Source: Xestospongia bergquistia (lineage: Eukaryota; Porifera; Demospongiae; Haplosclerida; Petrosiidae). From it: DNA of 64,000 nucleotides. The stretch spans positions 7,590,501 through 7,654,500 of the forward strand of contig OZ014413.1 of NCBI GenBank assembly GCA_963965975.1. The letters run 5' to 3'. This document shows positions 1 to 57,560 of the stretch, one piece after another. Within the stretch, counting starts at the first letter, position 1, and every line of letters begins with the position of its first letter. The translations under genes were made by a program, and so were the position numbers. The notes beneath the pieces were generated by a model, which saw only the letters and a list, made by a program, of their open reading frames with translations, was not told where the DNA came from and did no database searches.

Positions 1-2414
1 ATAGTAATGCTACCTGTATCAACACTGCTGGCAATTTTACATGTACTTGTAACACTGGATATGAAGGAAATGGAGAGTCATGTACAGGTTTGTAGCTTAT
101 TAGTAATATACATGAACATTAATAACGAAATCAAGAGAAATAATGAGTAACTTTAAATATAATATTAATTCCATTTTTTAGACATAGACGAATGCTTTAC
201 TAATACTCATAACTGTGATAGTAATGCTACCTGTATCAACACTGCTGGCAATTTTACATGTACTTGTAACACTGGATATGAAGGAAATGGAGAGTCATGT
301 ACAGGTTTGTAGTTTATTAGTAATATACAAAATCAAGAGAAATAATGGATAATTTTAAATATAATATTAATTCCATTTTTTAGACATAGATGAATGCTTA
401 ACTAATACTCATAACTGTGATAGTAATGCTACCTGTATCAACACTGCTGGTAATTTTACTTGTACTTGTAAGACTGGATATGAAGGAAACGGAGAGTTGT
501 GTACAGGTTTGTAGTTTATTAGTAATATACATGAACATTAATAACGAAATCAAGAGAAATAATGAGTAATTTTAAATATAATATTAATTCCATTCTTTAG
601 ACATAGACGAATGCTTTACTAATACTCATAGCTGTGATAGTAATGCTACCTGTATCAACACTGCTGGCAATTTCACATGTACTTGTAACACTGGATATAA
701 AGGAAACGGAGAGTCATGTACAGGTGTGTAATTTATTAGCAATATACATGAACATTAATAACAAAATTAAGACAAATAATAAGTAAGTTTTATGTAATAT
801 TAATTCCATTCTTTAGACATAGATGAATGCTTAACTAATACTCATAACTGTGATAGTGATGCTACCTGTATCAACACTGCTGGCAATTTCACATGTACTT
901 GTAACACTGGATATGAAGGAAATGGAGAGTCATGTACAGGTTTGTAGTTTATTAGTAATATACAAAATCAAGAGAAATAATGGATAATTTTAAATATAAT
1001 ATTAATTCCATTTTTTAGACATAGATGAATGCTTAACTAATACTCATAACTGTGATAGAAATGCTACCTGTATCAACACTGCTGGCAATTTCACATGTAC
1101 TTGTAAGACTGGATATGAAGGAAATGGAGAGTTGTGTACAGGTTTGTAGTTTATTAGTAATATACATGAACATTAATAACAAAATCAAGGGAAAATAGGT
1201 AATTTTAAATATAATATTAATTCCATTCTTTAGACATAGACGAATGCTTTACTAATACTCATAACTGTGATAGTAATGCTACCTGTATCAACACTGCTGG
1301 CAATTTCACATGTACTTGTAACACTGGATATGAAGGAAATGGAGAGTTGTGTACAGGTTTGTAGTTTATTAGTAATATACATTAACATTAATAACAAAAT
1401 CAAGAGAAATAATGAGTAATTTTTATGTAATATTAATTTCATTCTTAGACATTGATGAATGCTTAACTGATACTCATAACTGTGATATTATTTCTACTTG
1501 TATCAACACTGCTGGAAGTTTCACATGTACTGAATATGAAGGAAGTGGACAGTCATCTACAGGTTTTTCTTTTATTAAATTAGACAAATTTTTTGTCAAT
1601 ATTGCATATACTGATCATTAATCTCAAAAACCAAGGTAGACTTGCTCATTCATTTTCTAGATGTAGATGAATGTTCTACTAATAGTCATAACTGTGATAC
1701 TAATGCTACATGTACCAAAACTGCCAGTAATTTTACTTGTACATGTAACACTGGATATGAAGGAAATGGCCAGTTATGTACAGGTTTGTAGTTTATCAGA
1801 TATATACAAGCTCACTTAGAAGAAGTCAAGAAAACTATTGTCCGTTTATTATCATAATGTGAATTATCTTTAGACATAGATGAATGTTCAACTAATACTC
1901 ATAGCTGTGATAGTAATGCTACCTGTATCAACACTGCTGGCAATTTCACATGTACTTGTAACACTGGATATAAAGGAAACGGAGAGTCATGTACAGGTGT
2001 GTAATTTATTAGCAATATACATGAACATTAATAACAAAATTAAGACAAATAATAAGTAAGTTTTATGTAATATTAATTCCATTCTTTAGACATAGATGAA
2101 TGCTTAACTAATACTCATAACTGTGATAGTGATGCTACCTGTATCAACACTGCTGGCAATTTCACATGTACTTGTAACACTGGATATGAAGGAAATGGAG
2201 AGTCATGTACAGGTTTGTAGTTTATTAGTAATATACAAAATCAAGAGAAATAATGGATAATTTTAAATATAATATTAATTCCATTTTTTAGACATAGATG
2301 AATGCTTAACTAATACTCATAACTGTGATAGAAATGCTACCTGTATCAACACTGCTGGCAATTTCACATGTACTTGTAAGACTGGATATGAAGGAAATGG
2401 AGAGTTGTGTACAG
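1..2414 (+). CDS. EGF exons 1-12 (left end of visible array)
   Basis: Exon starts: 1 (partial, ends 87), 182, 384, 601, 817, 1019, 1234, 1449 (114-nt variant), 1661, 1874, 2090, 2292. A standard exon is 123 nt, opens with DIDEC, DVDEC or DINEC, and has six cysteines at module positions 5, 12, 18, 27, 29 and 40. It fits the calcium-binding EGF signature D-x-D/N-E-C and the Asx-hydroxylation pattern C-x-N-x4-F-x-C-x-C. Most modules carry two N-glycosylation sequons (NAT and NFT). Exons at 182-817 are in register with those at 7602-8237 (offset 7,420). Segments near 620-1140 recur near 1893-2413 (offset 1,273), and those near 1400-1890 recur near 2460-2940 (offset 1,058), so nested unequal exchanges built this part. 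Confidence 0.85.
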
Positions 2415-5400
2415 GTTTGTAGTTTATTAGTAATATACAATAACATTAATAACAAAATCAAGAGAAATAATGAGTAATTTTTATGTAATATTAATTTCAT
2501 TCTTAGACATTGATGAATGCTTAACTGATACTCATAACTGTGATATTATTTCTACTTGTATCAACACTGCTGGAAGTTTCACATGTACTGAATATGAAGG
2601 AAGTGGACAGTCATCTACAGGTTTTTCTTTTATTAAATTAGACAAATTTTTTGTCAATATTGCATATACTGATCATTAATCTCAAAAACCAAGGTAGACT
2701 TGCTCATTCATTTTCTAGATGTAGATGAATGTTCTACTAATAGTCATAACTGTGATACTAATGCTACATGTACCAAAACTGCCAGTAATTTTACTTGTAC
2801 ATGTAACACTGGATATGAAGGAAATGGCCAGTTATGTACAGGTTTGTAGTTTATCAGATATATACAAGCTCACTTAGAAGAAGTCAAGAAAACTATTGTC
2901 CGTTTATTATCATAATGTGAATTATCTTTAGACATAGATGAATGTTCAACTAATAGTCATAACTGTGATGGTAATGCTACCTGTATCAACACTGCTGGCA
3001 ATTTTACATGTACTTGTAACACTGGATATGAAGGAAATGGAGAGTCATGTACAGGTTTGTAGTTTATTAGTAATATACATGAACATTAATAACAAAATCA
3101 AGAGAAATAATGAGTAATTTTAAATATAATATTAATTCCATTTTTTTAGACATAGATGAATGCTTAACTAATATTCATAACTGTAATAGTAATACTACCT
3201 GTATCAACACTGCTGGAAGTTTCACATGTACTGAATATGAAGAAAGTGGACAGTCATCTACAGGTTTTTCATTTATTAAATTAGACAAATTCTTTGTCAA
3301 TATTGCATATACTGATCATTAATCATTAATATACACGAACGTTAATACCAAAATGACAATAATAATGAACAAGTTTTAATATAATATTACTCCAATTCTT
3401 TAGACATAAATGAATGTTTAACTAATAGTCATAACTGTGATAGTAATGCTACCTGTATCAACGCTGCTGGCACTTTCACATGTACTTGTAACACTGGATA
3501 TGAAGGAAATGGAGAGTTGTGTACAGGTTTGTAGCTTATTAGTAATATACATGAACATTAATAATGAAATCAAGAGAAATAATAGGTAATTTTAAATATA
3601 ATATTAATTCCATTTTTTAGACATAGACGAATGCTTTACTAATACTCATAACTGTGATAGTAATGCTACCTGTATCAACACTGCTGGCAATTTCACATGT
3701 ACTTGTAACACTGGATATGAAGGAAATGGAGAGTTGTGTACAGGTTTGTAGTTTATTAGTAATATACATTAACATTAATAACAAAATCTAGAGAAATAAT
3801 TAGTAAGTTTTATGTAATATTAATTTCATTCTTAGACATTGATGAATGCTTAACTGATACTCATAACTGTGATATTATTTCTACTTGTATCAACACTGCT
3901 GGAAGTTTCACATGTACTGAATATGAAGGAAGTGGACAGTCATCTACAGGTTTTTCTTTTATTAAATTAGACAATTTTTTTGTCAATATTGCATATACTG
4001 ATCATTAATCTCAAAAACCAAGGTAGACTTGCTCATTCATTTTCTAGATGTAGATGAATGTTCTACTAATAGTCATAACTGTGATACTAATGCTACATGT
4101 ACCAAAACTGCCAGTAATTTTACTTGTACATGTAACACTGGATATGAAGGAAATGGCCAGTTATGTACAGGTTTGTAGTTTATCAGATATATGAAAGCTC
4201 ACTTAGAAGAAGTCAAGAAAACTATTATCCGTTTATTATCATAATGTGAATTATCTTTAGACATAGATGAATGTTCAACTAATAGTCATAACTGTGATGG
4301 TAATGCTACCTGTATCAACACTGCTGGCAATTTTACATGTACTTGTAACACTGGATATGAAGGAAATGGAGAGTCATGTACAGGTTTGTAGCTTGTTAGT
4401 AATATACATGAACATTAATAACAAAATCAAGAGCAATAATGAGTAATTTTAAATATAATATTAATTCCATTTTTTAGACATAGACGAATGCTTTACTAAT
4501 ACTCATAACTGTAATAGTAATACTACCTGTATCAACACTGCTGGCAATTTCACATGTACTGAATATGAAGAAAGTGGACAGTCATCTACAGGTTTTTCAT
4601 TTATTAAATTAGACAAATTCTTTGTCAATATTGCATATACTGATCATTAATCATTAATATACACGAACGTTAATACCAAAATGACAAAAATAATGAACAA
4701 GTTTTAATATAATATTATTCCAATTCTTTAGACATAAATGAATGTTTAACTAATAGTCATAACTGTGATAGTAATGCTACCTGTATCAACACTGCTGGCA
4801 ATTTGACATGTACTTGTAACACTGGATATGAAGGAAATGGAGAGTCATGTACAGGTTTGTCGCTTATTAGTAATATACATGAACATTAATAACAAAATCA
4901 AGAGAAATAATGGGTAATTTTAAATATAATATTAATTCCATTTTTTAGACATAGACGAATGCTTTACTAATACTCATAACTGTGATAGTAATGCTACCTG
5001 TATCAACACTGCTGGCAATTTTACATGTACTTGTAACACTGGATATGAAGGAAATGGAGAGTCATGTACAGGTTTGTAGTTTATTAGTAATATACAAAAT
5101 CAAGAGAAATAATGGATAATTTTAAATATAATATTAATTCCATTTTTTAGACATAGATGAATGCTTAACTAATACTCATAACTGTGATAGTAATGCTACC
5201 TGTATCAACACTGCTGGTAATTTTACTTGTACTTGTAACACTGGATATGAAGGAAATGGAGAGTCATGTACAGGTTTGTAGCTTATTATTAATATACATG
5301 AACATTAATTACAAAATCAAGAGCAATAATGAGTAATTTTAAATATAATATTAATTCCATTTTTTTAGACATAGATGAATGCTTAACTAATATTCATAAC

Positions 5401-8400
5401 TGTAATAGTAATACTACCTGTATCAACACTGCTGGAAGTTTCACATGTACTGAATATGAAGAAAGTGGACAGTCATCTACAGGTTTTTCATTTATTAAAT
5501 TAGACAAATTCTTTGTCAATATTGCATATACTGATCGTTAATCATTAATATACACGAACGTTAATACCAAAATGACAAAAATAATGAACAAGTTTTAATA
5601 TAATATTACTCCAATTCTTTAGACATAAATGAATGTTTAACTAATACTCATAACTGTGATAGTAATGCTACCTGTATCAACACTGCTGGCACTTTCACAT
5701 GTATTTGTAACACTGGATATGAAGGAAATGGAGAGTTGTGTACAGGTTTGTAGCTTATTAGTAATATACATGAACATTAATAACAAAATCAAGAGAAATA
5801 TTGGTTAATTTTAAATTTGATATTAATTCCATTCTTTAGACATAGACGAATGCTTAACTAATACTCATAACTGTGATAGTAAAGCTACCTGTATTAACAC
5901 TGCTGGTAACTTTACATGTACTTGTAACACTGGATATGAAGGAAATGGAGAGTTGTGTACAGGTTTGTATTTTATTAGTAATATACATGAACATTAATAA
6001 CGAAATCAAGAGAAATAATGAGTAATTTTAAATATAATATTAATTCCATTCTTTAGACATAGACGAATGCTTTACTAATACTCATAGCTGTGATAGTAAT
6101 GCTACCTGTATCAACACTGCTGGCAATTTCACATGTACTTGTAACACTGGATATAAAGGAAACGGAGAGTCATGTACAGGTGTGTAGTTTATTAGCAATA
6201 TACATGAACATTAATAACAAAATTAAGACAAATAATAAGTAAGTTTTATGTAATATTAATTCCATTCTTTAGACATAGATGAATGCTTAACTAATACTCA
6301 TAACTGTGATAGTGATGCTACCTGTATCAACACTGCTGGCAATTTCACATGTACTTGTAACACTGGATATGAAGGAAATGGAGAGTTGTGTACAGGTTTG
6401 TAGTTTATTAGTAATATACATTAACATTAATAACAAAATCAAGAGAAATAATTAGTAAGTTTTATGTAATATTAATTTCATTCTTAGACATTGATGAATG
6501 CTTAACTGATACTCATAACTGTGATATTATTTCTACTTGTATCAACACTGCTGGAAGTTTCACATGTACTGAATATGAAGGAAGTGGACAGTCATCTACA
6601 GGTTTTTCTTTTATTAAATTAGACAAATTTTTTGTCAATAATGCATATACTGATCATTAATCTCAAAAACCAAGGTAGACTTGCTCATTCATTTTCTAGA
6701 TGTAGATGAATGTTCTACTAATAGTCATAACTGTGATACTAATGCTACATGTACCAAAACTGCCAGTAATTTTACTTGTACATGTAACACTGGATATGAA
6801 GGAAATGGCCAGTTATGTACAGGTTTGTAGTTTATCAGATATATACAAGCTCACTTAGAAGAAGTCAAGAAAACTATTATCCGTTTATTATCATAATGTG
6901 AATTATCTTTAGACATAGATGAATGTTCAACTAATAGTCATAACTGTGACGGTAATGCTACCTGTATCAACACTGCTGGCAATTTTACATGTACTTGTAA
7001 CACTGGATATGAAGGAAATGGAGAGTCATGTACAGGTTTGAAGCTTATTAGTAATATACATGAACATTAATAACAAAATCAAGAGCAATAATGAGTAATT
7101 TTAAATATAATATTAATTCCATTTTTTTAGACATAGATGAATGCTTAACTAATACTCATAACTGTAATAGTAATACTACCTGTATCAACACTGCTGGAAG
7201 TTTCACATGTACTGAATATGAAGAAAGTGGACAGTCATCTACAGGTTTTTCATTTATTAAATTAGACAAATTCTTTGTCAATATTGCATATACTGATCAT
7301 TAATCATTAATATACACGAACGTTAATACCAAAATGACAAAAATAATGAACAAGTTTTAATATAATATTACTCCAATTCTTTAGACATAAATGAATGTTT
7401 AACTAATAGTCATAACTGTGATAGTAATGCTACCTGTATCAACACTGCTGGCAATTTTACATGTACTTGTAACACTGGATATGAAGGAAATGGAGAGTCA
7501 TGTACAGGTTTGTAGCTTATTAGTAATATACATGAACATTAATAACGAAATCAAGAGAAATAATGAGTAATTTTAAATATAATATTAATTCCATTTTTTA
7601 GACATAGACGAATGCTTTACTAATACTCATAACTGTGATAGTAATGCTACCTGTATCAACACTGCTGGCAATTTTACATGTACTTGTAACACTGGATATG
7701 AAGGAAATGGAGAGTCATGTACAGGTTTGTAGTTTATTAGTAATATACAAAATCAAGAGAAATAATGGATAATTTTAAATATAATATTAATTCCATTTTT
7801 TAGACATAGATGAATGCTTAACTAATACTCATAACTGTGATAGTAATGCTACCTGTATCAACACTGCTGGTAATTTTACTTGTACTTGTAAGACTGGATA
7901 TGAAGGAAATGGAGAGTTGTGTACAGGTTTGTAGTTTATTAGTAATATACATGAACATTAATAACGAAATCAAGAGAAATAATGAGTAATTTTAAATATA
8001 ATATTAATTCCATTCTTTAGACATAGACGAATGCTTTACTAATACTCATAACTGTGATAGTAATGCTACCTGTATCAACACTGCTGGCAATTTCACATGT
8101 ACTTGTAACACTGGATATAAAGGAAACGGAGAGTCATGTACAGGTGTGTAGTTTATTAGCAATATACATGAACATTAATAACAAAATTAAGACAAATAAT
8201 AAGTAAGTTTTATGTAATATTAATTCCATTCTTTAGACATAGATGAATGCTTAACTAATACTCATAACTGTGATAGTGATGCTACCTGTATCAACACTGC
8301 TGGCAATTTCACATGTACTTGTAACACTGGATATGAAGGAAATGGAGAGTCATGTACAGGTTTGTAGTTTATTAGTAATATACATGAACATTAATAACAA

Positions 8401-11400
8401 AATCAAGGGAAAAATAGGTAATTTTAAATATAATATTAATTCCATTCTTTAGACATAGACGAATGCTTTACTAATACTCATAACTGTGATAGTAATGCTA
8501 CCTGTATCAACACTGCTGGCAATTTCACATGTACTTGTAACACTGGATATGAAGGAAATGGAGAGTTGTGTACAGGTTTGTAGTTTATTAGTAATATACA
8601 TTAACATTAATAACAAAATCAAGAGAAATAATTAGTAAGTTTTATGTAATATTAATTTCATTCTTAGACATTGATGAATGCTTAACTGATACTCATAACT
8701 GTGATATTATTTCTACTTGTATCAACACTGCTGGAAGTTTCACATGTACTGAATATGAAGGAAGTGGACAGTCATCTACAGGTTTTTCTTTTATTAAATT
8801 AGACAAATTTTTTGTCAATATTGCATATACTGATCATTAATCTCAAAAACCAAGGTAGACTTGCTCATTCATTTTCTAGATGTAGATGAATGTTCTACTA
8901 ATAGTCATAACTGTGATACTAATGCTACATGTACCAAAACTGCCAGTAATTTTACTTGTACATGTAACACTGGATATGAAGGAAATGGCCAGTTATGTAC
9001 AGGTTTGTAGTTTATCAGATATATACAAGCTCACTTAGAAGAAGTCAAGAAAACTATTGTCCGTTTATTATCATAATGTGAATTATCTTTAGACATAGAT
9101 GAATGTTCAACTAATAGTCATAACTGTGATGGTAATGCTACCTGTATCAACACTGCTGGCAATTTTACATGTACTTGTAACACTGGATATGAAGGAAATG
9201 GAGAGTCATGTACAGGTTTGTAGTTTATTAGTAATATACATGAACATTAATAACAAAATCAAGAGAAATAATGAGTAATTTTAAATATAATATTAATTCC
9301 ATTTTTTTAGACATAGATGAATGCTTAACTAATATTCATAACTGTAATAGTAATACTACCTGTATCAACACTGCTGGAAGTTTCACATGTACTGAATATG
9401 AAGAAAGTGGACAGTCATCTACAGGTTTTTCATTTATTAAATTAGACAAATTCTTTGTCAATATTGCATATACTGATCATTAATCATTAATATACACGAA
9501 CGTTAATACCAAAATGACAATAATAATGAACAAGTTTTAATATAATATTACTCCAATTCTTTAGACATAAATGAATGTTTAACTAATAGTCATAACTGTG
9601 ATAGTAATGCTACCTGTATCAACGCTGCTGGCACTTTCACATGTACTTGTAACACTGGATATGAAGGAAATGGAGAGTTGTGTACAGGTTTGTAGCTTAT
9701 TAGTAATATACATGAACATTAATAATGAAATCAAGAGAAATAATAGGTAATTTTAAATATAATATTAATTCCATTTTTTAGACATAGACGAATGCTTTAC
9801 TAATACTCATAACTGTGATAGTAATGCTACCTGTATCAACACTGCTGGCAATTTCACATGTACTTGTAACACTGGATATGAAGGAAATGGAGAGTTGTGT
9901 ACAGGTTTGTAGTTTATTAGTAATATACATTAACATTAATAACAAAATCTAGAGAAATAATTAGTAAGTTTTATGTAATATTAATTTCATTCTTAGACAT
10001 TGATGAATGCTTAACTGATACTCATAACTGTGATATTATTTCTACTTGTATCAACACTGCTGGAAGTTTCACATGTACTGAATATGAAGGAAGTGGACAG
10101 TCATCTACAGGTTTTTCTTTTATTAAATTAGACAATTTTTTTGTCAATATTGCATATACTGATCATTAATCTCAAAAACCAAGGTAGACTTGCTCATTCA
10201 TTTTCTAGATGTAGATGAATGTTCTACTAATAGTCATAACTGTGATACTAATGCTACATGTACCAAAACTGCCAGTAATTTTACTTGTACATGTAACACT
10301 GGATATGAAGGAAATGGCCAGTTATGTACAGGTTTGTAGTTTATCAGATATATGAAAGCTCACTTAGAAGAAGTCAAGAAAACTATTATCCGTTTATTAT
10401 CATAATGTGAATTATCTTTAGACATAGATGAATGTTCAACTAATAGTCATAACTGTGATGGTAATGCTACCTGTATCAACACTGCTGGCAATTTTACATG
10501 TACTTGTAACACTGGATATGAAGGAAATGGAGAGTCATGTACAGGTTTGTAGCTTGTTAGTAATATACATGAACATTAATAACAAAATCAAGAGCAATAA
10601 TGAGTAATTTTAAATATAATATTAATTCCATTTTTTAGACATAGACGAATGCTTTACTAATACTCATAACTGTAATAGTAATACTACCTGTATCAACACT
10701 GCTGGCAATTTCACATGTACTGAATATGAAGAAAGTGGACAGTCATCTACAGGTTTTTCATTTATTAAATTAGACAAATTCTTTGTCAATATTGCATATA
10801 CTGATCATTAATCATTAATATACACGAACGTTAATACCAAAATGACAAAAATAATGAACAAGTTTTAATATAATATTATTCCAATTCTTTAGACATAAAT
10901 GAATGTTTAACTAATAGTCATAACTGTGATAGTAATGCTACCTGTATCAACACTGCTGGCAATTTGACATGTACTTGTAACACTGGATATGAAGGAAATG
11001 GAGAGTCATGTACAGGTTTGTCGCTTATTAGTAATATACATGAACATTAATAACAAAATCAAGAGAAATAATGGGTAATTTTAAATATAATATTAATTCC
11101 ATTTTTTAGACATAGACGAATGCTTTACTAATACTCATAACTGTGATAGTAATGCTACCTGTATCAACACTGCTGGCAATTTTACATGTACTTGTAACAC
11201 TGGATATGAAGGAAATGGAGAGTCATGTACAGGTTTGTAGTTTATTAGTAATATACAAAATCAAGAGAAATAATGGATAATTTTAAATATAATATTAATT
11301 CCATTTTTTAGACATAGATGAATGCTTAACTAATACTCATAACTGTGATAGTAATGCTACCTGTATCAACACTGCTGGTAATTTTACTTGTACTTGTAAC

Positions 11401-14400
11401 ACTGGATATGAAGGAAATGGAGAGTCATGTACAGGTTTGTAGCTTATTATTAATATACATGAACATTAATTACAAAATCAAGAGCAATAATGAGTAATTT
11501 TAAATATAATATTAATTCCATTTTTTTAGACATAGATGAATGCTTAACTAATATTCATAACTGTAATAGTAATACTACCTGTATCAACACTGCTGGAAGT
11601 TTCACATGTACTGAATATGAAGAAAGTGGACAGTCATCTACAGGTTTTTCATTTATTAAATTAGACAAATTCTTTGTCAATATTGCATATACTGATCGTT
11701 AATCATTAATATACACGAACGTTAATACCAAAATGACAAAAATAATGAACAAGTTTTAATATAATATTACTCCAATTCTTTAGACATAAATGAATGTTTA
11801 ACTAATACTCATAACTGTGATAGTAATGCTACCTGTATCAACACTGCTGGCACTTTCACATGTATTTGTAACACTGGATATGAAGGAAATGGAGAGTTGT
11901 GTACAGGTTTGTAGCTTATTAGTAATATACATGAACATTAATAACAAAATCAAGAGAAATATTGGTTAATTTTAAATTTGATATTAATTCCATTCTTTAG
12001 ACATAGACGAATGCTTAACTAATACTCATAACTGTGATAGTAAAGCTACCTGTATTAACACTGCTGGTAACTTTACATGTACTTGTAACACTGGATATGA
12101 AGGAAATGGAGAGTTGTGTACAGGTTTGTATTTTATTAGTAATATACATGAACATTAATAACGAAATCAAGAGAAATAATGAGTAATTTTAAATATAATA
12201 TTAATTCCATTCTTTAGACATAGACGAATGCTTTACTAATACTCATAGCTGTGATAGTAATGCTACCTGTATCAACACTGCTGGCAATTTCACATGTACT
12301 TGTAACACTGGATATAAAGGAAACGGAGAGTCATGTACAGGTGTGTAGTTTATTAGCAATATACATGAACATTAATAACAAAATTAAGACAAATAATAAG
12401 TAAGTTTTATGTAATATTAATTCCATTCTTTAGACATAGATGAATGCTTAACTAATACTCATAACTGTGATAGTGATGCTACCTGTATCAACACTGCTGG
12501 CAATTTCACATGTACTTGTAACACTGGATATGAAGGAAATGGAGAGTTGTGTACAGGTTTGTAGTTTATTAGTAATATACATTAACATTAATAACAAAAT
12601 CAAGAGAAATAATTAGTAAGTTTTATGTAATATTAATTTCATTCTTAGACATTGATGAATGCTTAACTGATACTCATAACTGTGATATTATTTCTACTTG
12701 TATCAACACTGCTGGAAGTTTCACATGTACTGAATATGAAGGAAGTGGACAGTCATCTACAGGTTTTTCTTTTATTAAATTAGACAAATTTTTTGTCAAT
12801 ATTGCATATACTGATCATTAATCTCAAAAACCAAGGTAGACTTGCTCATTCATTTTCTAGATGTAGATGAATGTTCTACTAATAGTCATAACTGTGATAC
12901 TAATGCTACATGTACCAAAACTGCCAGTAATTTTACTTGTACATGTAACACTGGATATGAAGGAAATGGCCAGTTATGTACAGGTTTGTAGTTTATCAGA
13001 TATATACAAGCTCACTTAGAAGAAGTCAAGAAAACTATTATCCGTTTATTATCATAATGTGAATTATCTTTAGACATAGATGAATGTTCAACTAATAGTC
13101 ATAACTGTGACGGTAATGCTACCTGTATCAACACTGCTGGCAATTTTACATGTACTTGTAACACTGGATATGAAGGAAATGGAGAGTCATGTACAGGTTT
13201 GAAGCTTATTAGTAATATACATGAACATTAATAACAAAATCAAGAGCAATAATGAGTAATTTTAAATATAATATTAATTCCATTTTTTTAGACATAGATG
13301 AATGCTTAACTAATACTCATAACTGTAATAGTAATACTACCTGTATCAACACTGCTGGAAGTTTCACATGTACTGAATATGAAGAAAGTGGACAGTCATC
13401 TACAGGTTTTTCATTTATTAAATTAGACAAATTCTTTGTCAATATTGCATATACTGATCATTAATCATTAATATACACGAACGTTAATACCAAAATGACA
13501 AAAATAATGAACAAGTTTTAATATAATATTACTCCAATTCTTTAGACATAAATGAATGTTTAACTAATAGTCATAACTGTGATAGTAATGCTACCTGTAT
13601 CAACACTGCTGGCAATTTTACATGTACTTGTAACACTGGATATGAAGGAAATGGAGAGTCATGTACAGGTTTGTAGCTTATTAGTAATATACATGAACAT
13701 TAATAACGAAATCAAGAGAAATAATGAGTAATTTTAAATATAATATTAATTCCATTTTTTAGACATAGACGAATGCTTTACTAATACTCATAACTGTGAT
13801 AGTAATGCTACCTGTATCAACACTGCTGGCAATTTTACATGTACTTGTAACACTGGATATGAAGGAAATGGAGAGTCATGTACAGGTTTGTAGTTTATTA
13901 GTAATATACAAAATCAAGAGAAATAATGGATAATTTTAAATATAATATTAATTCCATTTTTTAGACATAGATGAATGCTTAACTAATACTCATAACTGTG
14001 ATAGTAATGCTACCTGTATCAACACTGCTGGTAATTTTACTTGTACTTGTAAGACTGGATATGAAGGAAATGGAGAGTTGTGTACAGGTTTGTAGTTTAT
14101 TAGTAATATACATGAACATTAATAACGAAATCAAGAGAAATAATGAGTAATTTTAAATATAATATTAATTCCATTCTTTAGACATAGACGAATGCTTTAC
14201 TAATACTCATAACTGTGATAGTAATGCTACCTGTATCAACACTGCTGGCAATTTCACATGTACTTGTAACACTGGATATAAAGGAAACGGAGAGTCATGT
14301 ACAGGTGTGTAGTTTATTAGCAATATACATGAACATTAATAACAAAATTAAGACAAATAATAAGTAAGTTTTATGTAATATTAATTCCATTCTTTAGACA

Positions 14401-17400
14401 TAGATGAATGCTTAACTAATACTCATAACTGTGATAGTGATGCTACCTGTATCAACACTGCTGGCAATTTCACATGTACTTGTAAGACTGGATATGAAGG
14501 AAATGGAGAGTTGTGTACAGGTTTGTAGTTTATTAGTAATATACATGAACATTAATAACAAAATCAAGGGAAAAATAGGTAATTTTAAATATAATATTAA
14601 TTCCATTCTTTAGACATAGACGAATGCTTTACTAATACTCATAACTGTGATAGTAATGCTACCTGTATCAACACTGCTGGCAATTTCACATGTACTTGTA
14701 ACACTGGATATGAAGGAAATGGAGAGTTGTGTACAGGTTTGTAGTTTATTAGTAATATACAATAACATTAATAACAAAATCAAGAGAAATAATGAGTAAT
14801 TTTTATGTAATATTAATTTCATTCTTAGACATTGATGAATGCTTAACTGATACTCATAACTGTGATATTATTTCTACTTGTATCAACACTGCTGGAAGTT
14901 TCACATGTACTGAATATGAAGGAAGTGGACAGTCATCTACAGGTTTTTCTTTTATTAAATTAGACAAATTTTTTGTCAATATTGCATATACTGATCATTA
15001 ATCTCAAAAACCAAGGTAGACTTGCTCATTCATTTTCTAGATGTAGATGAATGTTCTACTAATAGTCATAACTGTGATACTAATGCTACATGTACCAAAA
15101 CTGCCAGTAATTTTACTTGTACATGTAACACTGGATATGAAGGAAATGGCCAGTTATGTACAGGTTTGTAGTTTATCAGATATATACAAGCTCACTTAGA
15201 AGAAGTCAAGAAAACTATTGTCCGTTTATTATCATAATGTGAATTATCTTTAGACATAGATGAATGTTCAACTAATAGTCATAACTGTGATGGTAATGCT
15301 ACCTGTATCAACACTGCTGGCAATTTTACATGTACTTGTAACACTGGATATGAAGGAAATGGAGAGTCATGTACAGGTTTGTAGTTTATTAGTAATATAC
15401 ATGAACATTAATAACAAAATCAAGAGCAATAATGAGTAATTTTAAATATAATATTAATTCCATTTTTTTAGACATAGATGAATGCTTAACTAATATTCAT
15501 AACTGTAATAGTAATACTACCTGTATCAACACTGCTGGAAGTTTCACATGTACTGAATATGAAGAAAGTGGACAGTCATCTACAGGTTTTTCATTTATTA
15601 AATTAGACAAATTCTTTGTCAATATTGCATATACTGATCATTAATCATTAATATACACGAACGTTAATACCAAAATGACAAAAATAATGAACAAGTTTTA
15701 ATATAATATTACTCCAATTCTTTAGACATAAATGAATGTTTAACTAATAGTCATAACTGTGATAGTAATGCTACCTGTATCAACGCTGCTGGCACTTTCA
15801 CATGTACTTGTAACACTGGATATGAAGGAAACGGAGAGTCATGTACAGGTTTGTAGCTTATTAGTAATATACATGAACATTAATAACAAAATCAAGAGAA
15901 ATAATAAGTAAGTTTTATGTAATATTAATTTCTTTCTTAGACATTGATGAATGCTTAACTGATACTCATAACTGTGATATTATTTCTACTTGTATCAACA
16001 CTGCTGGAAGTTTCACATGTACTGAATATGAAGGAAGTGGACAGTCATCTACAGGTTTTTCTTTTATTAAATTAGATAAATTTTTTGTCAATATTGCATA
16101 TACTGATCGTTTATCTCAAAAACCAAGGTAGACTTGCTCATTCATTTTCTAGATGTAGATGAATGTTCTACTAATAGTCATAACTGTGATACTAATGCTA
16201 CATGTACCAAAACTGCCAGTAATTTTACTTGTACATGTAACACTGGATATGAAGGAAATGGCCAGTTATGTACAGGTTTGTAGTTTATCAGATATATACA
16301 AGCTCACTTAGAAGAAGTCAAGAAAACTATTATCCGTTTATTATCATAATGTGAATTATCTTTAGACATAGATGAATGTTCAACTAATAGTCATAACTGT
16401 GATGGTAATGCTACCTGTATCAACACTGCTGGCAATTTTACATGTACTTGTAACACTGGATATGAAGGAAATGGAGAGTCATGTACAGGTTTGTACCTTA
16501 TTAGTAATATACATGAACATTAATAACAAAATCAAGAGCAATAATGAGTAATTTTAAATATAATATTAATTCCATTTTTTTAGACATAGATGAATGCTTA
16601 ACTAATACTCATAACTGTAATAGTAATACTACCTGTATCAACACTGCTGGAAGTTTCACATGTACTGAATATGAAGAAAGTGGACAGTCATCTACAGGTT
16701 TTTCATTTATTAAATTAGACAAATTCTTTGTCAATATTGCATATACTGATCATTAATCATTAATATACACGAACGTTAATACCAAAATGACAAAAATAAT
16801 GAACAAGTTTTAATATAATACTACTCCAATTCTTTAGACATAAATGAATGTTTAACTAATAGTCATAACTGTGATAGTAATGCTACCTGTATCAACACTG
16901 CTGGCACTTTCACATGTACTTGTAACACTGGATATGAAGGAAACGGAGAGTCATGTACAGGTTTGTAGCTTATTAGTAATATACATGAACATTAATAACG
17001 AAATCAAGAGAAATAATGAGTAATTTTAAATATAATATTAATTCCATTTTTTAGACATTGATGAATGCTTAACTAATACTCATAACTGTGATAGTAATGC
17101 TACCTGTATCAACATTGCTGGCAATTTCACATGTACTTGTAACACTGGATATGAAGGAAATGGAGAGTTGTGTACAGGTTTGTAGTTTATTAGTAATATA
17201 CATGAACATTAATAATGAAATCAAGAGAAATAATGAGTAATTTTAAATATAATATTAATTCCATTCTTTAGACATAGACGAATGCTTTACTAATACTCAT
17301 AACTGTGATAGTAATGCTACCTGTATCAACACTGCTGGCAATTTCACATGTACTTGTAACACTGGATATGAAGGAAATGGAGAGTCATGTACAGGTTTGT

Positions 17401-35400: not shown

Positions 35401-38400
35401 CCATTTTTTAGACATAGATGAATGCTTAACTAATACTCATAACTGTGATAGTAATGCTACCTGTATCAACACTGCTGGCAATTTCACATGTACTTGTAAG
35501 ACTGGATATGAAGGAAATGGAGAGTCATGTACAGGTTTGTAGCTTATTAGTAATATACATGAACATTAATGGCAAAATCAAGAGAAATAATGTTTAATTT
35601 TAAATGTAATATTAATTCCATTTTTTAGACATAGATGAATGCTTAACTAATACTCATAACTGTGATAGTAATGCTACCTGTATCAACACTGCTGGAAGTT
35701 TCACATGTACTTGTAACACTGGATATGAAGGAAATGGAAAGTCATGTACAGGTTTGTAGCTTATTAGTAATATACATGAACATTAATGGCAAAATCAAGA
35801 GAAATAATGGTTAATTTTAAATGTAATATTAATTCCATTTTTTAGACATAGATGAATGCTTAACTAATACTCATAACTGTGATAGTAATGCTACCTGTAT
35901 CAACACTGCTGGAAGTTTCACATGTACTTGTAACACTGGATATGAAGGAAATGGAGAGTCATGTACAGGTTTGTAGCTTATTAGTAATATACATAAACAT
36001 TAACAACGGAATCAAGAGAAATAATGAGTAATTTTAAATATAATATTAATTCCATTATTTAGACATAGACGAATGCTTAACTAATACTCATAACTGTGAT
36101 AGTAATGCTACCTGTATCAACACTGCTGGAAGTTTCACATGTACTTGTAACACTGGATATGAAGGAAATGGAGAGTCATGTACAGGTTTGTAGCTTATTA
36201 GTAATATACATAAACATTAACAACGAAATCAAGAGAAATAATGAGTAATTTTAAATATAATATTAATTCCATTATTTAGACATAGACGAATGCTTAACTA
36301 ATACTCATAACTGTGATAGTAATGCTACCTGTATCAACACTGCTGGTAATTTCACATGTACTTGTAACACTGGATATGAAGGAAATGAAGAGTCATGTAC
36401 AGGTTAGTTGCTTATTAGTAATATACATGAACATTAATAACGAAATCAAGAGAATTAATGAGTAATTTTAAATATAATATTAATTCCATTTTTTAGACAT
36501 AGATGAATGCTTAACTAATACTCATAACTGTGATAGTAATGTTTCCTGTATCAACACTGCTGGAAGTTTCACATGTACTTGTAACACTGGATATGAAGGA
36601 AATGGAGTGTTGTGTACAGGTTTGTATTTCATTAGAAATCTACACAATCATTTATCATAAATCAAGAAGACAAATGAGCATTTATTAACAAAATATTAAT
36701 TAAATTCTTTAGACAGGTTTATGTTTTACTAGAAATATACAAGATTGTTTATAATTATTTAAGAAGAGTATTGAGCATGTATTAACATTTTGCCTATTTA
36801 ATTTTATAGACATAGATGAATGTTCTACTAATACTCATAATTGTGATACTAATGCTACATGTACTAACACTGCTGGCAATTTTTTATGTACTTGTAACAC
36901 TGGATATGAAGGAAATGGAGAATCGTGTAAAGGTTTGCGGTTTATTAGAAATATACATATTATTAATAGCAAAATCAAGAGAAATAATAGACAATTTTAT
37001 ATAATATAATATTAATTCAATTATATAGACATAGATGAATGCTTAACTAATACTCATAACTGTGATAGTAATGCTACCTGTATCAACACTGCTGGCAATT
37101 TCACATGTACTTGTAACACTGGATATGAAGGAAATGGACAATCATGTGCAGGTTTGTGGTTTGTTATTTAGATGAAATTAATAATGCAGATATAAATAAA
37201 AGAAAAATAAAGTACATGTCGATGTAGGGGGGGCTAATATCATTATTTTATAATGTGTGTAAACAAGATAGTTCCTATGACATTTTGACCACACCTACAT
37301 AATAGCACTTGTACAAACACTGAATGTTAGTTAAAAATGAATTTATAGTTTTAAATGGCTGCCTTGTTTGGTTAACTACTTTTCATTTTTCAAAAAAATG
37401 TGTTATTTTTTTGTACTTAAAACATTTATGTCAGCAGCATGTTCTTTGACAGCCCCTAAGTAGTGTTAAATAATACAGTATACTTTCTTCTTCTTTTTAA
37501 TATCTTATGTTTGTTACAAAGCAGCAACTGTAACCAGCTCAATTGTACTTATCACAACCAGTACTATTTCTTCTTCTCCATCACCTTCAGGTAAGTCAGC
37601 ACACACAATAGTGATATCATTCTACACTTTACAATGATATAGTTATTGTACTTTGTGCAAGTGAGGTAGATTCTGTGTATAACCTTTTGTGGGACATAAC
37701 GTATGTTGGAAATATTATTACCAAATATTGTCCACCTAGAAGATCAGGTAAATTGTGTTCTGTATTTAGCATTGAGTAGATATATCTACAATGGTTGTTA
37801 TGTTTATGTATAGGTAATATCAGTAGACAATGTACTAGTAATGGACTATGGTCTGAGATCAATCAAAGTGCTTGCCCTTTAGTGCAATTGATAGAAGATT
37901 TTGATAAAGTAATGTTGAACACAGCATGCAAAAGATCATGTTTAAAAATGTATCTATTGTTTACAATACCACTTCATTATAAATGATATTTCTTTTCTTT
38001 AGTTGAAAAAAATAACTTCTAATAACACAAACATTACATCACAAGAACAGAATGATGTTATCAACAACATTACTCAAAATATTGTTAATGTCACACAAAC
38101 AGTATTAACAACATCAGATGTCATCACTATTAACAAAATTGTAGATACATCAATTGTCATTCTTACATCTAACATTGGTGATACTAGTGTTACTAATCCC
38201 TTCCTTGTATCTGTAAGCATTAATGTTGTTTAAGTACAAAGCCTTGTTAATTAAATATGACTTCTTTATTGCTCCAGGAAATTCTTGACATTTTTAATAA
38301 CCTACTAGATGACCAGCATACTGATGAATTGTCGCAACTTAACGTTTGTAACATGAAACAAACTACATTACATATTTTAGTGTGTATTTTCCAAATACAG

Positions 38401-40956
38401 GATGATTTTGGAGGGGAGAAGCTAATGAGCAACATTGAGGATTATGGCAAATATGCAGGAAAATTCTTAGTTTACTATGATAATATTACTAATGATACAT
38501 TTGCAGCTGAAAAAGAAAATTTAGGTGATTTTTGTCAATATGCATCACCTAATATTATGTTTACATTGTACCATAGTATTTCAGGCAGATATTCAGGACA
38601 AATATCGTCTTAGTGATGTCGTTTTTCCTCTTACTTCCAAGTTATCCGTTTATACTGTTAATGATAGTTTATCTCATGTAAGAATACCATATCAACATCT
38701 TGAAGATCGCCAAACAGAAGGTTTGTTTTAATATTCCTAATATTTGTCTTTTTTTATCAATTTCATTTTAAGACAACAAAGTTGCTGTAATAAATGCATT
38801 AATTAACAACATTGCTGAAGTTCTCCCAGCAAGTTTAACAAAGTCAGCATTATTACTCTTTTCTGATTGGCTTGATTCAATTTCTGTAGTTTTACTGAGA
38901 ATGTTCCAGTGACACAAGTTATTACAACTCAAGTTATCTCTAGTAACACTTCTAGCCAAATTCCTGTGGTATTAAATTTCACCACTGTACCAGTATGTAA
39001 CATATAATTTTGCTAGCTCTATATATAGCTACTTCAGTATAGTTACTGTAAATGTTTAGTCAAAAAATTTGTTCTTTACTTATAACAAATGATTTTGTTA
39101 GCCGTATAGCATGCTAATGGAATATATTTACAATTAATGTTTAATCAAACTTGTTCTTTACTTATCACTTAGTTTCAAAATGCATCAAATCCACGATGTG
39201 CATTTTTGGACTTTTCAACGCAAGTTTTCCATCTAGCTATTATTATCATTATATATATCTGTTATATTTAATAGGGCCAATAGTAATGGTACCTGGTCTA
39301 CAGATGGTATTGAGTTAGTGTCTATCAAATATAAAATAACAAAGAAAGGGATTCAGTATAACCTAATATGTAATAGCAGTCACATAACTCCCTTTGTTGT
39401 ATTAGTGGATTTACATGGAGTGGAGGTAGACATATCTTTATATCATATGTGCAAGTACATGATATTTCTGTACCTTAATTCATTCTATAGATTCCAAAAG
39501 ATGAGTACATTGCTCTAGAGGTAGTGACATATGTTGGTCTCACTGTTTCGAGTATTTGTTGTATCTTAACTATCATTGTTTTACTAACTCTCAAGTAAAT
39601 GACAGTATAACAATTTATAGGTTCATCATATGTATCTACATTTACAGAAAAGAACTCATTCAAAATGTTCAGTATTTAGTGCATTTTAATTTGAGCATAG
39701 CTCTGCTTGGTGGCTATGTCATTTTTATATTTGGTATTGATGATAAAGTTATTGATTTAACTAGCTCAAAGGTACATACAAAATTTGTTCTTTATTTATA
39801 TTCACATGGTATTTTTCAGATTGGTTGTGGATTCATAGCAGCTCTTCTTCATTACTTCTTTTTAGCTGCTTTCTGTTGGATGTTATGTGAAGGCATCATG
39901 TTGTTTTTACAACTAGTTATTGTATTCTCTTCAATTTCTAAAAGATGGTATCTTTACCTGCTCATTGGATGGGGTAATAAACATTTTGATACGATAGTAT
40001 TATTTCTTGTATATAGGTCTACCAATTATTCCTGTGGGTGTATCAGTGAGTATACTTTATGAAAATTATGGTGTGCTTGGGAAATAGTAAGTTAGTATAA
40101 AAGTATTAATTATTTTATAATATTGTCCACCATGTAGTTGTTGGATTGATTTCAGTAGACGGGCTGTTATATGGGCTTTTCTAGGACCAGCATTGTTGAT
40201 TATTTTGGTAATTAAATAGATAGTTAGATAAATATTAAGAGAGAGACCAACAGATGAAAAACTGGACTATGTAACAGTTATTAGATAGATGGATACTGTG
40301 ATGTGTATTATTACAAATTATTATTAAGGTGTATTATTACAAATTGCACATAGATCAATATTGTACTGCTGATGTTAGCTATTCCAGCAATGGTACGCTA
40401 TTATAAAAGACGACAAAAACACAGTCGAATAAAAGACAAGAAAAAAGGAGATATTATCAGGTGTTGAAGCATTGTTGACTTTGTTAATTTCATTTTACCT
40501 TTATTGTTAGAAAAACTATCATTGGGTCACTAATATTGCTTCCTTTATTGGGAATAACCTGGCCACTTGGTCTGTTTGTAATCAATCGTCATGCTACAGT
40601 GTTTGCTTGGTTGTTCACTATCTTTTCAACTTTTCAGGTAATATAATGATGCATTTGGAAGTTTTATAACTTTTAACTTTAGGGATGTTTCATTTTCATA
40701 TTCAATGTGATAAGAATTGAGAAGGTATATAACACAGATTCTTGTAATTTATATATTTATATATTTTTATAGATTAAGAATGCCTTGTTTCAAATGTGTT
40801 GTCCAAAGCTATCAAAGGTATAAACTATGATAATGACTTATTATTGTGGATTGTATATTGCTGTAGAAATCAAGACAGCAGGAAGCATTAAATCTAGGCA
40901 GAACAGAAAGATATCATAGCCAACACATGTCTAACTTTGACAATTTGGTTCATTAA
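1..40956 (+). CDS. Giant EGF-repeat adhesion G-protein-coupled receptor, 5' partial, about 200 exons
   Basis: Predicted cell-surface adhesion GPCR. Domain order is at least 170 EGF modules, a Ser/Thr/Pro linker, HormR-like module, GAIN, GPS, seven helices and a short C-tail. The architecture resembles vertebrate EGF-7TM (ADGRE/ADGRL4-like) receptors, but the EGF number is far larger. I placed exons by AG/GT boundaries and frame. EGF exons are all phase 1-1, and the 21 downstream exons join in one frame from 37,522 to the TAA at 40,954-40,956. Summed coding length in the window is 22,655 nt; after the two leading bases of a split codon this divides exactly into 7,551 codons including the stop. 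The signal peptide and first exons lie beyond the left edge. Caveats: splicing is unproven, some exons may be skipped, and near-identical repeats may be miscounted by an assembler. Orthology to a named receptor is not claimed. Confidence 0.85.
2507..8575 (+). CDS. EGF exons 13-40, higher-order unit A
   Basis: Exon starts, with * for the 114-nt four-cysteine form: 2507*, 2719, 2932, 3150*, 3404, 3621, 3836*, 4048, 4261, 4478*, 4732, 4949, 5151, 5369*, 5623, 5840, 6057, 6273, 6488*, 6700, 6913, 7131*, 7385, 7602, 7804, 8021, 8237, 8453. Every start recurs 6,161 bp downstream. Rare shared markers confirm recent duplication: the unusual donor gtttgtcgc follows the exons at 4732 and 10893, and gtttgaagc follows those at 6913 and 13074. 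A few substitutions separate the copies, for example in the intron near 6639. All 28 exons are free of stops and keep length and phase. Confidence 0.85.
8668..14736 (+). CDS. EGF exons 41-68, higher-order unit B (copy of unit A)
   Basis: Exon starts, * for the four-cysteine form: 8668*, 8880, 9093, 9311*, 9565, 9782, 9997*, 10209, 10422, 10639*, 10893, 11110, 11312, 11530*, 11784, 12001, 12218, 12434, 12649*, 12861, 13074, 13292*, 13546, 13763, 13965, 14182, 14398, 14614. Each equals a unit A start plus 6,161 with no net indel over 28 exons and their introns, so the duplication is recent or has been homogenised. The copies begin to differ near 14,484, where NTG becomes KTG in the exon at 14398. 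The first five exons of the next block keep the 6,161-bp register, so a truncated third copy follows. Confidence 0.85.
14829..17394 (+). CDS. EGF exons 69-80, higher-order unit C1
   Basis: Exon starts, * for the four-cysteine form: 14829*, 15041, 15254, 15472*, 15726, 15941*, 16153, 16366, 16584*, 16838, 17055, 17272. The first five keep the 6,161-bp register with unit B, then the register breaks after 15848. The whole 12-exon block recurs 2,658 bp downstream. Four of the 12 exons are the four-cysteine variant, the densest stretch in the array. Confidence 0.83.
17487..20052 (+). CDS. EGF exons 81-92, higher-order unit C2 (copy of C1)
   Basis: Exon starts equal C1 plus 2,658: 17487*, 17699, 17912, 18130*, 18384, 18599*, 18811, 19024, 19242*, 19496, 19713, 19930 (* four-cysteine form). 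Intron markers are shared, including the donor gtttgtacc after the exons at 16366 and 19024 and the acceptor tctttcttag before those at 15941 and 18599. Similarity stops about 20,075, where a different intron type begins. Confidence 0.83.
20132..23319 (+). CDS. EGF exons 93-107, region dominated by six-cysteine modules
   Basis: Exon starts: 20132, 20349, 20567 (114-nt variant), 20821, 21038, 21255, 21472, 21688, 21890, 22108, 22326, 22544, 22761, 22979, 23197. Spacing is about 217 bp. Local single-unit copies are visible: 22326 and 22544 both encode YERNG instead of YEGNG, and 22761, 22979 and 23197 share NTVG in place of NTAG. One donor is gttagtag (after the exon at 21038). All exons are open and phase 1-1. 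Confidence 0.83.
23413..27710 (+). CDS. EGF exons 108-127, higher-order unit D1
   Basis: Exon starts, * for the four-cysteine form: 23413*, 23667, 23885, 24102, 24318*, 24573, 24775, 24993, 25194*, 25397, 25610, 25827, 26043*, 26297, 26514, 26732, 26950, 27168, 27386, 27588. The block from about 23.2 to 25.95 kb recurs 4,390-4,391 bp downstream; the 1-bp change of offset lies between 24,431 and 24,573. All modules keep length and phase. Confidence 0.83.
27804..32499 (+). CDS. EGF exons 128-149, higher-order unit D2
   Basis: Exon starts, * for the four-cysteine form: 27804*, 28058, 28276, 28493, 28709*, 28963, 29165, 29383, 29584*, 29787, 30000, 30217, 30435, 30637, 30853*, 31107, 31324, 31552, 31760, 31971*, 32164, 32377. 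The first 12 match D1 in register; exons 30435 and 30637 then shift the register by about 420 bp. The exon at 30435 opens EIDEC, replacing the first calcium-binding aspartate by glutamate. That at 31552 encodes CGSN instead of CDSN. Confidence 0.83.
32595..36619 (+). CDS. EGF exons 150-168, right part of array with no four-cysteine variants
   Basis: Exon starts: 32595, 32813, 33030, 33247, 33475, 33693, 33900, 34117, 34334, 34551, 34768, 34985, 35203, 35412, 35629, 35846, 36063, 36280, 36497. All are 123 nt with six cysteines. A three-exon unit at 33900-34456 recurs at 34551-35107 (offset 651). The exons at 34334 and 34985 open EIDEC. The exon at 35203 reads HKCDNNATC and YEANG, and that at 36497 reads NVSC and GVLC, so divergence rises toward the array edge. 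Confidence 0.83.
36713..36716 (+). pseudogene. Ghost EGF exon reduced to four bases between intact splice-site-like flanks
   Basis: Between the exons at 36497 and 36810 lies a typical acceptor (attctttag), then only ACAG, then a donor-like gtttatg. The flanking intron-like stretches are each 93 nt (36620-36712 and 36717-36809), a normal intron length here. ACA begins the exon and ACAG ends it, so loss of 119 nt between those repeats gives exactly this remnant. Inclusion of 4 nt would shift the frame, so it is presumably spliced over as one 190-nt intron. Confidence 0.7.
36810..37151 (+). CDS. EGF exons 169-170, divergent C-terminal end of array
   Basis: Exon 169 (36810-36932) and exon 170 (37029-37151) are both 123 nt, phase 1-1, with six cysteines. 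They differ more from the consensus than internal exons: NFLCTC and ESCKG in 169, QSCAG in 170. Their introns have distinct ends (acceptors tttatag and tatatag; donors gtttgcgg and gtttgtgg). This is expected at the edge of an array homogenised by unequal exchange. Confidence 0.83.
37152..37521 (+). other. Long intron after the EGF array
   Basis: A 370-nt intron, several times longer than the roughly 95-nt array introns. I see no EGF-like exon, no repeat of the array and no other gene in it. It contains a run of seven G near 37,228 and ends in a pyrimidine-rich tract. The acceptor is AAGCAG at 37519-37524, a NAGNAG-type pair that could add or remove one alanine codon. Confidence 0.55.
37522..37590 (+). 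CDS. Receptor exon: Ser/Thr/Pro-rich linker
   Basis: This 69-nt, phase 1-1 exon has a strong donor (gtaagt). It encodes 23 residues rich in Ser, Thr and Pro ([12 protein letters not shown] at the end), typical of an O-glycosylated stalk between EGF modules and membrane-proximal domains. Being symmetric, it could be skipped without changing frame. Confidence 0.7.
37670..37908 (+). CDS. Receptor exons: hormone-receptor-like (HormR) module
   Basis: Two exons, 37670-37747 (phase 1-1) and 37814-37908 (phase 1-0). Together they encode a W..T..G......CP pattern followed by [19 protein letters not shown] and ACP, which fits the C-terminal half of the HormR domain (R-x-C-x2-N/D-G-x-W) common in adhesion GPCRs just before GAIN. 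The first acceptor (gaggtag) has a weak pyrimidine tract; I chose it because it keeps the frame open. The usual first cysteines of the domain are not seen, so the module may be short or another small exon may be missing. Confidence 0.65.
38003..38992 (+). CDS. Receptor exons: GAIN domain
   Basis: Six exons: 38003-38212, 38278-38343, 38401-38524, 38589-38720, 38773-38842, 38890-38992. Phases run 0-0, 0-0, 0-1, 1-1, 1-2, 2-0. The first part is helical and Asn/Thr-rich ([13 protein letters not shown]), as in GAIN subdomain A. The later part has beta-strand patterns ending [11 protein letters not shown], as expected just before a GPS. The intron at 38344-38400 is 57 nt, has no in-frame stop and could be retained. 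The intron at 38843-38889 (47 nt, donor gtcagc, acceptor ttctgtag) is inferred because the direct frame stops and this splice restores it. The exon at 38589 uses the second AG of a tandem pair; the first would give an early stop. Confidence 0.75.
39173..39425 (+). CDS. Receptor exons: divergent GPS and tethered-agonist region
   Basis: Exons 39173-39219 and 39275-39425. The joined sequence runs [11 protein letters not shown], then [12 protein letters not shown], then [19 protein letters not shown]. This is a GPCR autoproteolysis site: conserved first Cys, Trp, the H-x-T cleavage tripeptide (HIT, cut between I and T by analogy) and a hydrophobic stretch after it that would form the tethered agonist. 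Canonical GPS has four Cys; here positions 2 (DGI) and 4 (CNS) are not Cys. The junction requires a GC donor (AC|gcaagt) because no GT donor gives the open phase. The first exon would otherwise read to a GT in phase 0, which meets TAG after the acceptor. Confidence 0.75.
39491..40956 (+). CDS. Receptor exons: seven-transmembrane domain and C-tail
   Basis: Exons: 39491-39594 (TM1), 39648-39771 (TM2), 39820-39973 (TM3-TM4), 40017-40086, 40138-40207 (loop 2 Cys and TM5), 40354-40460 (basic loop 3), 40511-40637 (TM6-TM7), 40683-40724, 40773-40817, 40867-40956. Family-B2 hallmarks are visible: [17 protein letters not shown] in TM3, a TM3 cysteine (IGCGF) paired with YCWID in loop 2, WAFLGP in TM5, GITWPLG in TM6 and QGCFIF in TM7. 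A basic segment ([15 protein letters not shown]) precedes TM6. The tail is short and ends DNLVH. Introns are tiny (43-53 nt, except 146 nt at 40208-40353). All phases join. Confidence 0.85.
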
Positions 40957-46535: not shown

Positions 46536-46553
46536 CTTAATCTATGCTAAAAT

Positions 46554-57320: not shown

Positions 57321-57560
57321 TCCGGATCCACTATATTATAATTATTTATTACTTACTGGATTGCTGTAAGTGTTCCCTTTAGCATGGAAAGGCTAGGTTA
57401 CTGCAATAGACATCCATTTTGTTTCAGTGACTAATCATTATGTGTAATGACTCTTAATGACGACATTTTAGAAGATTGTTCTATATATAGAAATCTAATT
57501 ACAAAAACTATGTGGTCATTGTTTTGATAGGGATATTAATGTGTAGTTATTAATTGAAAA

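Follow-up and report, generated by a model that had tools for sequence, protein, structure and literature searches.

A predicted adhesion GPCR gene with at least 180 EGF exons in the sponge Xestospongia bergquistia

Introduction

The EGF-7TM receptors (ADGRE1-5) encode their EGF modules one per exon, in frame and ahead of the 7TM. In ADGRE1, where module number varies by duplication and skipping, the human, mouse and pig receptors are described with 7 EGF modules, and those of ruminants, horse, cat and dog probably have 14 (PMC6174849). A very long ectodomain is also found in ADGRV1/VLGR1, which has been called the largest adhesion GPCR and is described as forming fibrous links between neighbouring membranes (PMC13197933), with a mass given as up to 700 kDa (PMC9496679). 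Longer EGF series are found in Dumpy of Drosophila, an extracellular protein with more than 300 EGF repeats and 78 coding exons; it is a matrix protein with a ZP domain whose EGF repeats are interspersed with DPY modules, and no 7TM is mentioned in the parts of the account drawn on here (PMC2930355). Among sponges, at least eight adhesion GPCRs of Amphimedon are described with an HRM domain and two with SRCR repeats, and EGF appears in a domain figure legend; the parts of that study drawn on here report no large EGF array (PMC4302439).

Here, we describe a locus in Xestospongia bergquistia that resembles the EGF-7TM receptors in carrying EGF modules one per exon, in frame and ahead of a 7TM, but has at least 180 of them, compared with 7 or probably 14 in ADGRE1. 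An initial sequence-only reading had set it against the "handful" of EGF modules in known EGF-7TM receptors; the array does lie far beyond these, although "handful" understates ADGRE1, given its module numbers above (PMC6174849). No EGF-array adhesion GPCR of such size is named in the titles and abstract openings listed by searches of one open-access library for EGF-bearing adhesion GPCRs, nor in the parts of PMC12716839 and PMC6208332 drawn on here. The predicted gene is best described as an extreme form of EGF-bearing adhesion GPCR that was not previously known.

Results

An array of at least 180 EGF exons runs into an assembly gap

The window, the whole 64,000-nucleotide stretch of DNA analysed (C3:7590501-7654500 of a 146.46 Mb genome assembly in 21 contigs), was read together with 140 kb to its left (204 kb), position 0 being the base just before the window. 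A splice-aware scan demanding an AG acceptor, a GT donor, phase 1-1 and no stop returned 182 rows, and 180 of these form one consecutive series of EGF exons (-2259..37151); the demanded features hold by construction and are not independent evidence. Two rows were left out as not EGF-like (90 bp at -132350 and 99 bp at 37331). The parts of the array referred to below are as follows.

1..37151, forward strand: EGF exon array, with 169 complete exons and one cut by the left border; introns of 78-190 bp across all 180 exons
37029..37151, forward strand: last EGF exon
1449..1562, forward strand: example of a 114-bp four-Cys module

The complete exons within the window comprise 136 with six Cys and 33 with four, and the exon at -35..87 straddles the left border. 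Together these are the 170 modules counted in the sequence-only reading, which had also stated that the left end of the array was not reached and that the ectodomain would exceed 7,000 residues. All three statements agree with the wider region: the array continues to 180 exons in the genome and meets an assembly gap of 200 N (-2599..-2400), adjoined by a partial EGF exon, and the complete EGF exons alone are predicted to encode 7,269 residues.

Array exons have only two lengths, 123 bp (143 exons, six Cys) or 114 bp (37 exons, four Cys). Since all 179 intervals between them measure 78-190 bp, the array holds no unit that the scan missed because its exon was interrupted or poorly spliced, with the exception of one apparent relic. 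This unit lies near 36713, in the 190-bp interval 36620-36809 between EGF exons 36497-36619 and 36810-36932, where acceptor-like and donor-like edges adjoin and the exon body has seemingly been deleted. TRF reports the array as a 217-bp repeat with 167.8 copies spanning 1-36715. The modules are related, with 78 distinct sequences among the 143 six-Cys exons and 7 among the 37 four-Cys exons. The six-Cys pattern gave 143 non-overlapping forward matches, all between about -2.3 and 37.1 kb, and 0 on the opposite strand of this 204-kb region, while both other frames are interrupted by stops in 180 of 180 exons (which are related copies); a chance pattern as the source of the EGF exons is thereby ruled out.

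The number 180 is a lower bound. The 493 bp to the right of the gap have identical copies at two places within the array, and each of the two leftmost modules has an exact internal counterpart. Other array ends, in contrast, have diverged: the second-last module of the window array shows 13 mismatches to its nearest neighbour in sequence, and the first and last modules of a second array on C8 (see below) show 13 and 12 (the score of 58 for one C8 module arises solely from an ungapped comparison across its deletion). This difference suggests that the assembly holds too few modules rather than too many, and the array is probably incomplete, with further modules missing in the gap. Exact long duplications mean that the module number inside the array could also be off, and copy number is uncertain owing to near-identical higher-order duplications. 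Exact array patterns occur only at this locus in the assembly (86 of 86 and 34 of 34 matches), although they match part of the modules only and diverged copies elsewhere would escape them. DNA similarity searches, which skip common words and list almost none of the C8 array, were left out of this comparison. At the gap, the 5' end of the gene, including its signal peptide, is absent from the assembly; the array and the 137.4 kb left of the gap have no 20-mer in common, and the N-terminal domain of the C8 genes, used to seek this 5' end, has no match on C3, the chromosome of the window.

A HormR-7TM tail joins the last EGF exon in phase

Downstream of the array, 21 exons (37522..40956) continue in phase after the last EGF exon and end in a TAA at 40956, with exon boundaries set manually so that the frame is preserved. 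AG is present at all 21 acceptors and GT at 19 of 20 donors, the exception being a GC at 39219; the resulting GC-AG intron (39219/39275) sits within the GPS-coding region.

37522..37590, forward strand: Ser/Thr-rich linker exon, 69 bp, phase 1-1
37670..37908, forward strand: HormR (HRM), two exons (37670-37747 and 37814-37908), by Pfam
38003..38992, forward strand: region between HormR and GPS, six exons, GAIN by position only
39173..39425, forward strand: GPS-like region, two exons (39173-39219 and 39275-39425), with His-Ile-Thr in the expected cleavage position
39491..40724, forward strand: 7TM (7tm_2), eight exons
40773..40956, forward strand: short cytoplasmic tail and stop, two exons

Pfam assigns 7tm_2 to tail residues 430-678 (6.8e-53) and HRM at 2.9e-6 (28 bits, cut-off 26.2); a HormR ahead of GAIN is common, though not universal, in adhesion GPCRs. 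The HormR-GAIN-GPS-7TM block proposed from the initial reading is supported at its two outer domains, whereas GPS and GAIN have no Pfam match in the window tail. The best match among solved structures (PDB) is ADGRL3 (7.4e-59), with ADGRE5 scoring lower. When aligned to ADGRL3, the GPS region keeps the first and third GPS Cys (two of the usual four) and places H-I-T where cleavage is expected. The HormR domain and the 37 four-Cys modules set the gene apart from the ADGRE receptors; the position of ADGRL3 above ADGRE5 is a ranking in a PDB search rather than in a tree.

Related receptors in the same genome

A close relative of the tail lies on the window's own chromosome, at a distance of about 0.7 Mb (C3:8314665-8323934, reverse strand), and matches it piece by piece with 40-82% identity, the lower values occurring where introns were read through. 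It has the same GPS form, so neither the tail model nor the unusual GPS is a local accident. Two Pfam SRCR matches lie shortly before its HormR domain and no such EGF array lies upstream, which gives the appearance of an ectodomain swap with SRCR in place of the EGF array. Two of the adhesion GPCRs described in Amphimedon likewise carry SRCR repeats (PMC4302439).

A second array was found on C8, where a gap-free stretch begins with an N-terminal domain, which is followed on the same strand by 55 EGF exons and then by an HRM-like match, a GPS and a 7TM, this order being read from successive matches rather than from a full splice model. The N-terminal domain (C8:2007373-2007870) begins like a signal peptide, as judged by eye, and has no Pfam match; the GPS scores 2e-12 and the HRM-like match falls under the cut-off. 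Stops interrupt the other frames in 55 of 55 EGF exons, and pN/pS is 0.58 among 33 distinct sequences (one with an in-frame deletion compared ungapped), a weaker constraint than in the window. The 7TM of this gene is distant from that of the window gene (42% and 25% in its two pieces), and long arrays thus occur with different 7TM lineages. Judged from these matches, the EGF-array-to-7TM architecture recurs at an independent locus.

Sister genes flank the 55-EGF gene, one with one EGF exon found (C8:1985211) and the other with two (C8:2019946-2020284), in each case between the same N-terminal domain and the gene's 7TM. With 1, 55 and 2 EGF exons found at C8 and at least 180 in the window gene, these loci form a natural length series for the effects of ectodomain length on adhesion GPCRs. 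The interval C8:1.89-2.02 Mb as a whole is an adhesion GPCR gene cluster sharing this N-terminal domain, and it accounts for 15 of 21 matches in a search with the domain, some of them pieces of one gene. A run of 12 similar EGF exons was also seen on C1 (C1:14712025-14714541, reverse strand), with no 7tm_2 nearby among the matches listed.

Array growth and selection on modules

Two higher-order tandem duplications are prominent within the array, in which 132 of the 180 modules have an identical counterpart.

2478..14485, forward strand: higher-order tandem duplication of 6,161 bp, 7 mismatches in 6,000 bp compared, longest exact match 4,162 bp
14729..20077, forward strand: higher-order tandem duplication of 2,658 bp, exact match 2,691 bp

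The six Cys are invariant across all 143 six-Cys exons. Among their 78 distinct sequences, codon positions 1, 2 and 3 differ by 0.036, 0.060 and 0.108, and pN/pS is 0.318 (resampled 0.24-0.39), a pattern suggesting that selection maintains the six-Cys exons even as exchange between copies goes on. The value for four-Cys modules (0.819, 7 distinct sequences) indicates weak constraint and does not show selection. Introns, of which 81 of 94 distinct sequences (76-100 bp) were compared, differ by a mean of 0.168 and a median of 0.106 and come in many lengths; their median distance is not above that of third codon positions, which counts against the interpretation as one functional gene favoured below. 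A pseudogene array is unlikely, as every unit bar the apparent relic has an open exon and codon-position bias is clear. Together with the C8 genes, the locus shows that a coding array can grow by dozens of exons with frames intact.

Six-Cys and four-Cys modules suggest a jointed tether

A calcium-type start (x-D/N-E-C) is present in 180 of 180 modules, its E having been demanded by the scan; C-x-[ND]-x4-[FY]-x-C occurs in 162 and six Cys in 143 of the 180, and Pfam places EGF_3 and EGF_CA over cut-off. Tandem calcium-binding EGF modules of the fibrillin type share with the array the DxDEC motif and the one-residue gap between C6 and the first Asp of the next module, although fibrillin is secreted and without 7TM, unlike the receptor predicted here. 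Calcium stiffens calcium-type EGF tandems with such one-residue linkers, and at the roughly 2.5-3 nm per module of fibrillin the array would have a contour of about half a micrometre.

The array is, however, not made of 180 canonical EGFs, since 37 of the 180 modules have four Cys, all of them lacking C5 and C6 and all remaining in frame. We know of no fibrillin-type counterpart for these modules. They separate the six-Cys modules into 38 runs that range from 1 to 23 modules in length, and the longest run is the membrane-proximal one. The single rigid, calcium-bound EGF rod envisaged at the outset is doubtful as a continuous structure with 37 modules devoid of C5 and C6. Division of the array into runs favours a jointed tether over one rigid rod, at least as predicted from module composition.

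If the whole EGF array is spliced into the transcript, calcium could make each run of six-Cys modules a stiff segment, the four-Cys modules, which have one disulfide fewer, being likely weaker joints, and the chain might reach a partner in the matrix or on a different cell. By analogy with the family, pull or binding would then free or shift a tethered agonist after the HIT site and allow the 7TM to signal. A mechanosensing or tethering role of this kind, raised in the initial reading, is hypothetical. Module number would be expected to change through unequal crossing-over, and phase 1-1 exons could be skipped without a frame break.

Discussion

One gene, its transcripts and its copy number

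We consider it probable that the locus is one adhesion GPCR gene in which at least 180 EGF modules stand on a linker-HormR-GAIN/GPS-7TM block and the exons are spliced together as predicted. This rests on exon order, phase, open frames, conserved cysteines, the calcium-type motif and tail homology, and gives a predicted protein of about 7,960 residues or more (7,269 from complete EGF exons and about 692 from the tail block). That a secreted or matrix EGF-array protein might instead end at about 37.2 kb, with a separate short adhesion GPCR starting after it, appears very unlikely to us. It is true that read-through of the last EGF donor reaches a stop within a few codons, that two AATAAA hexamers (37195 and 37206) follow closely on the last EGF exon, and that the SRCR relative (C3:8.31-8.32 Mb) seems compact, with a start-like frame about 1.5 kb before its HormR exon in frames read by eye and without a splice model. 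AATAAA is expected often, however, at about 70% A+T (our own estimate); the last EGF donor, the linker and the HormR exons match in phase; and the frame ahead of the linker exon, like that ahead of each HormR exon, runs back to a stop without a Met. A receptor start at the linker or HormR was therefore not seen, while a start exon spliced from elsewhere is possible. The order of the C8 locus, from a start-like domain through an EGF array to a 7TM, is the best independent support for one gene. Given the hexamers and a hydrophobic stretch, itself without Met, in frame upstream of the linker exon, the single gene might possibly also have a shorter secreted form or another start.

A real gene does not imply that every transcript is complete. 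Most mature transcripts could skip many EGF exons and yield a receptor family of differing reach, as in ADGRE1, and we regard this as a serious possibility that falls somewhat short of probable. Phase 1-1 was found for every array exon, and the single, in-frame EGF exons of ADGRE1 are described as probably each skippable in every species examined (PMC6174849); intact splice sites and frame in all array units bar the relic near 36713 show exons kept usable but are silent on skipping. Inflation or deflation of copy number by assembly of near-identical repeats is a tentative possibility. It would fit the tandem stretches that match exactly over 4,162 bp and 2,691 bp, the identical modules and the gap inside the array. 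The array is not, however, one unit copied, given its 78 distinct six-Cys sequences, a gap-free array of 55 modules exists on C8, and the identity between the gap edge and internal copies, unlike the diverged ends elsewhere, points to missing modules instead of surplus ones. Array length and the order of six- and four-Cys modules might even differ between individuals, so that each would have a GPCR on its own form of tether, several hundred nanometres long, which could act as a cell-spacing ruler or a recognition tag between individuals, although we regard this as speculative and rather unlikely.

Comparison with ADGRV1 and the remainder of the window

Like the window gene, ADGRV1 is an adhesion GPCR with a very long ectodomain. 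It differs in that its ectodomain is described as containing Calx-beta and other repeats rather than EGF, and the mouse C-terminus is numbered 6198-6307, against the roughly 7,960 residues predicted here (PMC9496679). If transcribed whole, the sponge receptor would be longer than this protein, called the largest adhesion GPCR (PMC13197933).

Further downstream in the window, four long open frames that look alike by eye follow in a row on the forward strand (46551-48110, 50804-52144, 54299-55990 and 57558-59255). Two of them were scanned: the 54299 frame matches the POT/PTR2 transporter family below cut-off, and the 46551 frame matches the same family over cut-off.
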